This document shows positions 47,688-54,916 of a stretch of DNA of 64,000 nucleotides, piece by piece. Where the stretch lies: assembly GCA_030386875.1 (NCBI GenBank), contig CM059575.1, positions 18,810,293-18,874,292 of the forward strand. The letters run 5' to 3'. Every line of letters starts with the position of its first letter. The stretch's first letter is position 1. Below the pieces are notes generated by a model. The model made no database searches, was not told the origin of the DNA, and saw nothing but the letters and a program-made list of their open reading frames with translations. The position numbers were made by a program, and so were the translations under genes. Origin of the DNA: Morinoia aosen. Lineage: Eukaryota > Arthropoda > Malacostraca > Amphipoda > Talitridae.

Positions 47688-48936
47688 CTTCCTCAAGGTT
47701 CAATCATCGGCCCACTCCTATTTTCAATTTTCATCAACGATTTCCCCACCATGCCGGCAAACACAAAAATCTCAATGTATGCTGATGACGTACAAATTGC
47801 CATGACAAGCTCAACAGCGGATTTAACAGAAACACAAGCCAACGCTGAAAACCTTCTGAGAAATCTGAAATTGTGGTATGACCATAATGGCCTCAAACTT
47901 AACGCAAGTAAAACGCAATGCATTATTTTTGGATCACAGAATGCGACTGAAAATTTACCACCATTCCAGCTAACATTTGGAGACGATACAATTAAACCAG
48001 TCGATAAGGTTAAAAATCTGGGTGTTTGGTTTGACAAAAATATGACTTTCAATTCACACGTCGAAACAATGTGCAACAAAATTAACGGAACCTTAATGTT
48101 CTTTCATCGTATAAAGAACACACTTGACGAAAAATCTAGATTATTAGTGATTCAGTCTTTAGTTTTATCGCGTCTGGACTACTGCAGTCTTGTGTGGGGA
48201 GACTTACCTAAATGTCGTCAGGAAGAGTTGCAAAAATGTGTAAACTTCGCCGCCAAGGTGGTATGCAAAGGAAATTTTAATAAATACGATCATGTCACCC
48301 CTCTTTTAAGAAAACTCGACTGGATCCCAATACCGAACAGATTCATGATCCAGAAAGCTCGACGAGTATTCTCCTCTCTGTACCTCCCCCAAAGTAATGC
48401 TGAGGTGGTAAAATTTTTTCCATCTAATATCCCAAACGAAAGACCAAACCGGAGGAACGATGTTTTAGTCAGTTACCGTTCATCTAACGTGGGACAAAAA
48501 GCTCTCTCAGTTTCTGGAGCTTTTTTGTGGAACAAGCTTCCCCAGCATATCAAAAACTCTAAAACTGGAAAAGAATTTAGAGTAAATGTGTCACGTCATT
48601 TTACATCTCTGTCATAGGGCCTGCAGCATCTCGGTGTGAACTTCCCATCTATCAGAAATTTTAATTTTTCCCCAAATTTCTGTTAGAAATTTAGAACCTA
48701 TTTCATTTTACGTTTGCTAAGCGATTCGTATATTCATCTTACTTAATTCTGTCGACAACAATGAGCACCACAGCCGTCAGTTCAGTGCAGCAGAACGAAC
48801 GTTCTTTCCATAATTAGGAGTATTTCCTCATCTTTATTTTGTTATTTCTTTCTCTTTTCTGTATTAATATTTAACGTCCGTATGACAAATATACCATGAA
48901 ATACATTTTGTGTGTACACCAATAAACAGGTTTATA
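47688..48936 (+). mobile_element. 5'-truncated CR1/Jockey-like LINE
   Basis: The copy starts inside the reverse transcriptase just before the LPQGSIIGPLLF motif (47688), keeps the C-terminal half of ORF2 and a 3' untranslated region of about 320 bp, and ends near CCAATAAACAGGTTTATA (48920-48936). Most of ORF2 (endonuclease and the RT fingers) and all of ORF1 are missing, as is usual after incomplete target-primed reverse transcription. There is no poly(A) tail; the AATAAAC-G-TTTA ending resembles that of the second LINE tail at 53.8 kb. No clear target duplication was found. Confidence 0.9.
47751..48617 (+). CDS. LINE ORF2 fragment: reverse transcriptase palm to C-terminus
   Basis: A 288-codon frame, continuous upstream to 47688, encodes the end of a non-LTR reverse transcriptase, which copies element RNA at a nicked chromosomal site. 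Motifs in order are LPQGSIIGPLLF (47688, before the first ATG), the catalytic YADD (47778-47789), the NGLKLNASKTQCIIF block, KNLGVWFD, a thumb region with SRLDYCSLVWG, LRKLDWIPI, and a C-terminal GAFLWNKLPQHIK typical of CR1/Jockey-group proteins. Neighbouring frames are closed and the stop at 48615-48617 is the natural end. The ATG at 47751 is simply internal and not a genuine start. It has no stop over more than 300 codons, so the copy is young, but it cannot make a working enzyme. This is the only open frame here clearly longer than chance. Confidence 0.93.
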   Translation: MPANTKISMYADDVQIAMTSSTADLTETQANAENLLRNLKLWYDHNGLKLNASKTQCIIFGSQNATENLPPFQLTFGDDTIKPVDKVKNLGVWFDKNMTFNSHVETMCNKINGTLMFFHRIKNTLDEKSRLLVIQSLVLSRLDYCSLVWGDLPKCRQEELQKCVNFAAKVVCKGNFNKYDHVTPLLRKLDWIPIPNRFMIQKARRVFSSLYLPQSNAEVVKFFPSNIPNERPNRRNDVLVSYRSSNVGQKALSVSGAFLWNKLPQHIKNSKTGKEFRVNVSRHFTSLS

Positions 48937-53245: not shown

Positions 53246-53264
53246 TACTACAGCTTTTTAACTT

Positions 53265-53430
53265 TAATTTAAAAAAGGTCAAGTTCAATTTAAAAAAGGT
53301 CAAGTTCAATTTAAAAAAGCTCAAGTTTAATATAAAAAAGCTCAAGTTCGAATTAAAAAAGCTCAAGTTTAATTTAAAAAAGTTCAAATTAAATTTAAAA
53401 AAGATCAAGTTTCATTTAAAAAGTCTCAAG
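53265..53430. repeat. 21-bp subrepeats of the left foldback arm, about 8 units
   Basis: The unit AATTTAAAAAAGCTCAAGTT plus one base occurs about eight times with variants (GGTCAAG, GTTCAAA, GATCAAG). Because 21 is a multiple of three and the unit lacks stops in two frames, both strands stay open; the products are heptad runs (FNLKKLK on plus, FFKLNLS on minus). Confidence 0.9.
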
Positions 53431-53812
53431 CAGACTATATTTAAAGAAATCAAATTCAATTTTGGAAAGCTTATGTTTCTAAAATTGCATACTTATGTAA
53501 TAATAATATAATTGAAGTTTATTCATGAGAATGCATATTTATTTAAAATTACTGGCACCGAAAATAGAGTAAATCGAATATCAGACAAGGCAAGCTGCTG
53601 TAATTTTGTACTCAATTTGACATTCTTTAAGTTTTACCTATGAATCATTTGCTAAACAGATCATCGGTACTTTTATCTACCGACAAAAATGATGCGAATA
53701 AACTTTATCTAATAAGAAACTGTATGACAATTAGCAAACTGCACTGACTGAAAAATTAAACATAACTGAGCTTCAACTTTTCAGTCAGTGCAGATTGCTA
53801 ATTGTCCCACAG

Positions 53813-54480
53813 TTTAAACAATTTAAACAATTTTAAACAGTTTATTTACCCCAGGTGATACAGAGGTAGAATGTTTCTCAAGTCTAGTACAATGGTCAAA
53901 TTTGAGTATAGCTACCTGTGGGCCCGAACAAGTTCAGCGACTTCTAGGGCATCCTACCATCACGTTATTCTAGGGTGTACAAAAAATGTTTAACCTAGTT
54001 CACTAAACCTAGTTTCGCATTAGACTGATCATTGAGATAATTAACTCGATATTTTATGCTGTATTTTTACAATATAGGTCAAATCGGCTATATTTAACAG
54101 TATGTTCGAAAAAACGATTCAAGATCAGACAGAAGATCGGTTATGGTACCCAAGGCAAGTTACATTATGACATTATCATTAGTTACATGTAGGAGGCAAG
54201 GTTTTAACATGGTGATCTTACACGACTAGTATTCTGATAGGAAGTGAGACTCAAGATGTCTTTTGAATACTTTGTACGAATTACATTCACGGATCTCTGC
54301 AGGTATAGAGTTCCAAGTTTTGGTTCCAACGAAGAGGATACTGTGTTGCGACCTGGCCATTGAATAGTAAGGAAGCATGAATTTACTTCTATTTCGGGTT
54401 AAATGGTTGTGATGACCAGTTTGCGCAGTTAATAATTGTCTTAGGCAATTGCCGCCATCATTTATTAATGGGTTATTTAA
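53813..54480 (-). mobile_element. 5'-truncated LINE tail inserted in the foldback arm
   Basis: On the minus strand about 85 codons of ORF2 C-terminus are followed by a 3' untranslated region of about 370 bp ending GGGGTAAATAAACTG. A short tail of repeats TTTAAAATTG, TTTAAATTG, TTTAAACTG follows (53810-53845). Outside the tail the foldback arm reads GCTAATTGTCCCACAG-TTT. Beyond the 5' junction it continues CTTATTACATAAAGTTTATT, exactly where the left arm's reverse complement predicts, so the LINE came after the palindrome. Short 3' tail repeats instead of poly(A) are known in CR1 and related LINEs. Confidence 0.85.
54226..54480 (-). pseudogene. LINE ORF2 C-terminal fragment
   Basis: About 84 residues ending at TAG (54226-54228): DGGNCLRQLLTAQTGHHNH, then LTRNRSKFMLPYYSMARSQH, then SILFVGTKTWNSIPAEIRE, then SYKVFKRHLESHFLSEY. 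The G-x-x-x-W-N-x-I-P-x-x-I-R and F-K-R-H-L elements are the standard C-terminal tail of CR1/Jockey-type ORF2 proteins. The fragment carries no RT motif and no internal stop. It differs in sequence from the C-terminus of the LINE at 47.7 kb, so the two are related but distinct families. Confidence 0.85.
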
Positions 54481-54779
54481 TGTAACTTATTACATAAAGT
54501 TTATTTGCATCATTTTTGTCAATAGATGTAAGTACCGGTGATCTGTTTAGCAAATGATTCATAGGTAAAACTTAAAGAATGCCAAATTAAGTACAACATC
54601 ACAACAGCTTGCCGTGCCTGATATTTGATTTACTCTATTTTCAGGGCCAGTACTTTTAAGTAAATATGCCTTCTGACAAATAAACTTTACTTATCTTATT
54701 ATTACATAAGTATGAAATTTTAGAAACAAAAGCTTTTCAAAATTGAAATTCATCTTTTTTAAATATAGCCTGCTTGAGA

Positions 54780-54900
54780 CTTTTCAAATTAAACTTGAGC
54801 TTTTTTAAATTGACCTTGAACTTTTTTAAACTAAACTTGAGCTTTTTTAAATTAAACTTGAGCTTTTTTAAATTGAACTTGAGTTTTTTTAAAGTAAAGA
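54780..54900. repeat. 21-bp subrepeats of the right foldback arm, about 5-6 units
   Basis: Reverse complement of the subrepeats at 53265-53430 (CTTTTTTAAATTAAACTTGAG and variants), with two or three fewer units than the left arm, so the array has changed length since the arms diverged. Confidence 0.9.
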
Positions 54901-54916
54901 TAAAAAGCTGTAGTAT

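Follow-up and report, generated by a model that had tools for sequence, protein, structure and literature searches.

Structure of the palindromic element

The window analysed here, a stretch of 64,000 nucleotides from contig CM059575.1 of Morinoia aosen, carries a palindrome at positions 53248–54913, the parts of which are collected in Table 1. A repeat search of the window returned inverted repeats of 277 nt (88%), 164 nt (85%), and 142 nt (89%) between 53246–53716 and 54486–54915. With the AT-rich subrepeats excluded, the two inner arms are identical at 253 of 286 positions as inverted repeats, and their local alignment score is 218, whereas dinucleotide shuffles of one arm (500 in number) scored 18.9 on average and 33 at most. 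It can be observed that the arms are bordered by 21-bp arrays in opposite orientation. An earlier note on this sequence had described a kilobase palindrome with terminal subrepeats, and both features are borne out; the alignment of the arms outside the AT-rich subrepeats, failure of which would have spoken against the note, is also confirmed. The note had also placed a tiny loop at the centre, between arms of 29 bases; the tiny loop stands, while the core had been drawn slightly short, as the paired arms extend to 44 nt (39 of 44 paired) around 11 nt. The ends of the element read CTACAGCTTTTTAACTTTAA...GTTAAAAAGCTGTAG, the end sequence also being given as CAGCTTTTTAACTTTAATTTAAAAAAG. The window element has a foldback structure, and its long inverted arms contain tandem repeats.

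Table 1. Positions and strands of the parts of the palindromic element in the window.
Feature	Position	Strand	Basis
Whole element, CAGCTTTTTAAC...ATAAAAAGCTG, later LINE insert included	53251–54910	.	Sequence and like ends in fetched copies with both ends found
Left target remnant, A-CTA; TA (53249–53250) read as one copy of the target duplication	53247–53250	.	Sequence; empty CTAG site around L025
Left terminal array, 21-bp unit AATTTAAAAAAGCTCAAGTTC, 7.9 copies	53266–53430	+	Repeat search
Left inner arm (a-arm)	53431–53716	+	Self-alignment
Central hairpin, 44-nt arms (53717–53760 and 53772–53815), 39/44 paired, 11-nt loop	53717–53815	.	
Later insertion, LINE 3' tail, A/T-rich tail at low-coordinate end	~53815–54481 (667 bp)	-	
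Right inner arm (b-arm), 253/286 identical to left inner arm	54486–54772	-	
Right terminal array, 21-bp unit of the left array inverted, 6.0 copies	54773–54898	-	Repeat search
Right target remnant, TAG-T; TA (54911–54912) read as second copy of the target duplication	54911–54914	.	Sequence; L025 array

Elsewhere in the window, positions 1–1439 are occupied by long tandem arrays with units of 22 bp (50.5 copies) and 26 bp (13.1 copies), part of which is crossed by open frames.

A LINE tail within the right arm

The right arm is interrupted in the window copy and continuous in all six other copies that were aligned on the plus strand (fetched places carry labels beginning with L). In five of these the junction runs from 53814 to 54482 with an overlap of 3 nt, and in the sixth, L046, from 53812 to 54485 with a gap of 2 nt, which places the insert at about 53815–54481. 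On its minus strand, the insert encodes a peptide that resembles, as judged by eye, the carboxy terminus of a LINE, which we take to be of the CR1/L2-like clade. An open fragment of a LINE reverse transcriptase (309 codons, Pfam RVT_1) lies at 47688–48617 of the window, and the insert peptide shows a weak match to this ORF (27% over 52 aa, E 0.002); a Pfam search of the short peptide itself returned no match. The DNA of the insert recurs in L072 (79% over 310 bp and 81% over 81 bp), where the palindrome arm is matched in short weak stretches only. The tail was absent from every fetched palindrome copy except that of the window, in a comparison covering the places other than L001, which is the window's own. 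Consequently, on this sample of copies, the possibility that the LINE forms part of the element was rejected, in agreement with the earlier note, and the tail is an insertion that arrived after the palindrome had formed.

Copies and forms of the family

The left arm was used to search the host assembly (1.99 Gb in 29 contigs), and the best 40 of 4340 first-look candidates were scored. The 39 places fetched are those that resemble the window arm most closely and represent no random draw. A 31-mer taken from the terminus has 388 exact matches genome-wide, compared with none for the reversed control. Among the 39 elements with both ends, the length ranges from 1082 to 2231 bp and the number of matched 21-bp units from 6 to 46 per side. 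A comparison with a phage collection gave no match.

Two forms of the element can be distinguished. An extra segment of approximately 394 bp, always on the side of the b-arm (for example L010:1678–2071), is present in 28 of the 39 elements, and the remaining 11, including that of the window, are without it. The foldback picture proposed earlier accordingly holds for the window copy, while the 28 elements with the segment are asymmetrical. The segment is bounded by approximate copies of GACTTTTTAAATTAAA, a 16-bp direct repeat. In the 21 copies compared at this place, a one-base difference beside the segment separates the two forms fairly well: with the segment, GCTTGC is found in 9 of 10, L027 being unreadable at that position, and without it GCCTGC is found in 9 of 11, the other two (L018 and L037) carrying GTCTGC. 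It should be noted that the count of forms includes L015 and L024 in addition to the set used below for the flanks, and that L019 and L024 probably go back to a single insertion, which was copied together with its surroundings.

A side observation concerns L035 (2371–4601), in which about 46 units were matched on one side and which lies 26 bp from another copy; it is a possible seed of a satellite.

History of the arms

The arms were compared in the 39 copies that have two arms and no more, L035 having been dropped because it has four; these are again the best-scoring copies and not a random sample. Within a copy, the two arms are on average 88.2% identical (84.2–98.7%). Between copies, mean identity is 94.3% for a-arms, 92.1% for b-arms, and 87.7% for an a-arm against a b-arm. 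In the midpoint-rooted tree, 36 of the 39 b-arms form one clade (support 0.96), and all 39 a-arms together with three b-arms form the other. Since arms of the same side cluster across copies, the palindrome was formed, and its arms diverged, before the sampled copies spread. A recent inverted duplication at the window locus was rejected for the same reason, as arms of the same side resemble each other more across copies than the two arms do within a copy. In a few copies (L018 and L037, to judge from the near equality of their arm matches) the arms were homogenised later.

DDE_3 transposase genes with related ends

The genome was searched with the Pfam DDE_3 profile; 150 matches were scored and listed out of 6722 candidates, and seven of the loci listed were fetched. 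Two of these encode a DDE_3 domain in long frames, L068 in 404 codons (Pfam E 1.2e-23) and L069 in 392 codons (5.1e-21), and both give matches to a Tc3-type HTH that are below the Pfam cut-off. In L068 the residues D202, D284, and E320 give, by count, a D-x35-E spacing.

Terminal arrays with a period of 21 bp, or of its double, are found in three of the seven loci, the array search having covered the six other than L073. In L069 the two ends carry 12.5 and 5.1 units of 21 bp, inverted relative to each other; L068 has 10.6 units at one end, while its other end shows similarity over a short stretch; and in L070 a period of 42 bp (2 x 21) was seen at one end. The array of L071 is based on 15 bp, and no terminal 21-bp array was seen in L072 or L074. 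At the best rotation, the unit of the window element agrees with that of L068 at 16 of 21 positions (a fraction of 0.00075 of 4000 shuffles) and with that of L069 at 14 of 21 (0.0385).

The ends are also related. One end of L068 and one of L069 read TA-CACCTTTTTAGCTTCAAA and TA-CACCTTTTTCGATTCAAG, respectively, with the shared form TA-CACCTTTTT... The end of the window element is identical to the former at 25 of 33 positions, which none of 100,000 shuffles reached, and to the latter at 21 of 33, which was reached by 4 of 100,000; these shuffles preserve base content only. The score of 25/33 concerns a single end of L068, the other end of which reads CCCCTTTTAACTTAG. As the right end of L068 is flanked by TAT and not TAG, and a search for that of L069 found none, a CTAG target is no more than a possibility in these relatives.

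The exact terminus of the element is absent from all seven DDE_3 loci, and no partner transposase gene was found among them. L068 and L069 could thus be cousins of the element rather than its partner. The seven transposase loci were rejected as a source of the arms or of the 394-bp segment, the matches being short and weak.

Two further observations were made on these loci. In L072, a copy of the LINE tail that entered the window element is present as two pieces, with a DDE_3 element (789–2431; frame of 324 codons, inverted ends of 225 bp) between them. Furthermore, the 19 best DDE_3 matches among those listed fall on contigs C27 (60–67 Mb; 18 matches) and C26 (20.5 Mb; one match), the top match scoring 137 bits compared with 83 on the next contig; these 19 possibly represent a different type.

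Ends and target site

Flanks were compared in 37 copies, namely the window element and 36 others; L015 (mutated left end), L023 and L029 (one end not found), and L024 (with the flanks of L019) were dropped. The element is bordered by CTA and TAG in 36 of the 37 copies. The bases outside these trinucleotides are A and T in 25 of the 37, one of the 25 having TGG for TAG. Genome-wide, the C before TA is nearly absolute, with 388 matches compared with only 8 further matches of the 31-mer that have another base in this position. The outer A and T in 25 of 37 copies can be compared with the window itself, where 8 of 122 CTAG sites are ACTAGT.

In none of the 37 copies were the flanks at the CTA/TAG boundary identical over 3–12 bp. 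Over lengths of 2–12 bp, the mean identity of a copy's own flanks was 24–31%, no better than the 26–30% of crossed flanks. Identical 2-bp pairs numbered 5, with 3.6 expected, and a shift of the flanks by one base gave one identical 3-bp pair, with 0.83 expected. The flanks of L014, TAACCTTT and TAACCCTTT, are imperfectly alike over 8–9 bp, which could reflect either chance or a longer duplication.

A view of an empty site is provided by L025, which lies within a tandem array of a 32-bp unit. The unit of this array reads CCAA-CTAG-AAGC, compared with CCAA-CTA...TAG-AAGC at the element. Of the 14 units matched at the insertion point, 9 read CTAG, 2 TTAG, and 1 TTGG, and 2 are irregular; the nearest unit on each side of the element reads CTAG. 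A second view is provided by L037, inserted in a frame that resembles, as judged by eye, that of a reverse transcriptase. Ten loci were compared, of which L048 is the query place itself, five aligned on both sides, and four (L053, L055, L056, and L057) gave no plus-strand match. In the five paralogues, the flanking CTA and TAG correspond to a spacer of 4 bp, TTCG, the register of which fits a duplication of 2 bp. The paralogues of L037 support the spacing and not the letters, which are supplied by L025 alone. The TA duplication is thus seen at L025 and its spacing at L037, two insertions only. CTAG is best read as the target, with TA duplicated inside it, and on this basis the element proper extends from 53251 to 54910. 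The genome search for other copies with target duplications that had been proposed earlier found many copies, and the duplication is best read as TA and not as one of 7–10 bp.

In the flank of L044 the homology to other places ends short of the junction, and a comparison of L031 and L040 with window repeats gave nothing informative. Two other repeats were observed to end at the junction or within a few bases of it, in either orientation (L009, L030, L032, and L042 for one; L027, L039, and L021 for the other), and their ends perhaps supply the CTAG.

Three alternative readings of the element were weighed. The first, which is very unlikely, assigns it to the Tc4 foldbacks (Tc4/Tc5, pogo-like, with a DDD transposase) as they occur in nematodes and arthropods. 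Tc4 of Caenorhabditis elegans is a foldback DNA transposon with the target CTNAG, of which TNA is duplicated (PMC11071193), so that it shares with the present element the foldback shape, a palindromic C..G target, and the duplication of the centre alone. However, the empty site at L025 is of 4 bp and not 5, as is the spacing at L037, and the relatives with like ends carry a DDE_3 domain in which the third residue is E, compared with DDD in Tc4. Terminal arrays of 21 bp are not known to us in Tc4.

Highly unlikely is a reading in which no target duplication occurs, CTA and TAG being the terminal bases of the element itself and 4 bp being replaced at the target. The near invariance of CTA...TAG, together with the bias towards C, would be expected from it, and the TTCG found in the L037 paralogues would fit. 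However, the site in the L025 array reads CTAG, which a TA duplication explains with no deletion. Furthermore, a TA duplication is described as the rule for IS630-Tc1-mariner elements, with TATA in Sailor (PMC8533490). Models of this kind, Spy- or Helitron-like, were rejected once the array had shown the empty site.

Finally, kinship with the Foldback/Galileo elements, as put forward in the earlier note, is extremely unlikely and was rejected: although long inverted arms, internal tandem subrepeats, a short middle, and the roughly alike flanks of L014 speak for it, Galileo, of the P superfamily, and Tetris are described as having duplications of 7 bp and 8–10 bp, respectively (PMC3573991, PMC4079207), whereas no identical one of 3–12 bp was found at the boundary in the 37 copies, and against it also stand the TA within CTAG at L025, the agreeing spacing at L037, and the match of one end of a DDE_3 element to the end of the window element.

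Comparison with known systems

The likeness to Foldback, Galileo, and Tetris concerns the long inverted arms, their internal tandem repeats, the short centre, and a repeat number that varies between copies, while the difference concerns the target duplication. The tandem repeats in Galileo arms are reported as repeated binding sites (PMC3573991, PMC4079207). Regarding the target, IS630 inserts preferentially at TA in CTAG, as given by a title (Tenzen and Ohtsubo 1991) cited in PMC2170065. The present element shares with it the CTAG target with TA within. However, IS630 is an insertion sequence of bacteria and carries a transposase of its own. We know of no foldback arms or terminal arrays in IS630. 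The host loci L068 and L069 are alike in their 21-bp terminal arrays (at both ends of L069 and one of L068) and in their related ends; they differ in possessing a transposase frame, and their similarity to the arms of the element is limited to short, weak stretches. No eukaryotic CTAG-targeting element, and no foldback Tc1/mariner element, was named in the titles found in the open-licence literature.

Proposed origin and mode of transposition

Most probably, the palindrome in the window is an old copy of a DNA transposon that belongs to the IS630-Tc1-mariner type, is non-autonomous and present in high copy number, and has the anatomy of a foldback. The best reading of the element is a non-autonomous foldback member of the DDE_3 group, Tc4-like in shape, but with TA in CTAG.

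The following course of events is proposed for this transposon. A DDE_3-type transposase supplied by another element, of the kind that the DDE_3 elements of this genome encode in frames of 392–404 codons, probably binds to the end sequence and to the 21-bp arrays, which would serve as repeated putative binding sites by analogy with the tandem repeats of Galileo arms. The enzyme would then cut the element out and paste it into the TA within CTAG, usually ACTAGT, and insertion would duplicate the TA, an outcome shown at L025 and backed by the spacing at L037. The palindrome was already in place when the sampled copies began to spread. Later changes affected the lengths of the arrays, separated the two forms that differ by the segment of about 394 bp, and homogenised the arms in a few copies. 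The window copy later received the LINE tail in its right arm.

A broader proposal is put forward tentatively, as a possibility somewhat short of an even chance. The host may harbour a separate branch of IS630-Tc1-mariner, characterized by D-x35-E, frames of 392–404 codons, and 21-bp terminal arrays, which targets CTAG as bacterial IS630 does, at least in its foldback members, and from which foldback satellites may have arisen, converging on the architecture of Tc4 and Galileo.

Significance

A foldback shape is often treated as naming a family. Here the element that bears it has a target of the mariner type, as deduced from an empty site, and the shape therefore looks convergent. The element is otherwise a typical satellite transposon. 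Its near-absolute CTAG target, in a genome of 2 Gb, resembles that of IS630. Furthermore, as 21-bp arrays are common to a foldback devoid of protein and to transposase genes of one and the same genome, the two constitute a pair with which the role of such arrays as binding sites may be tested.
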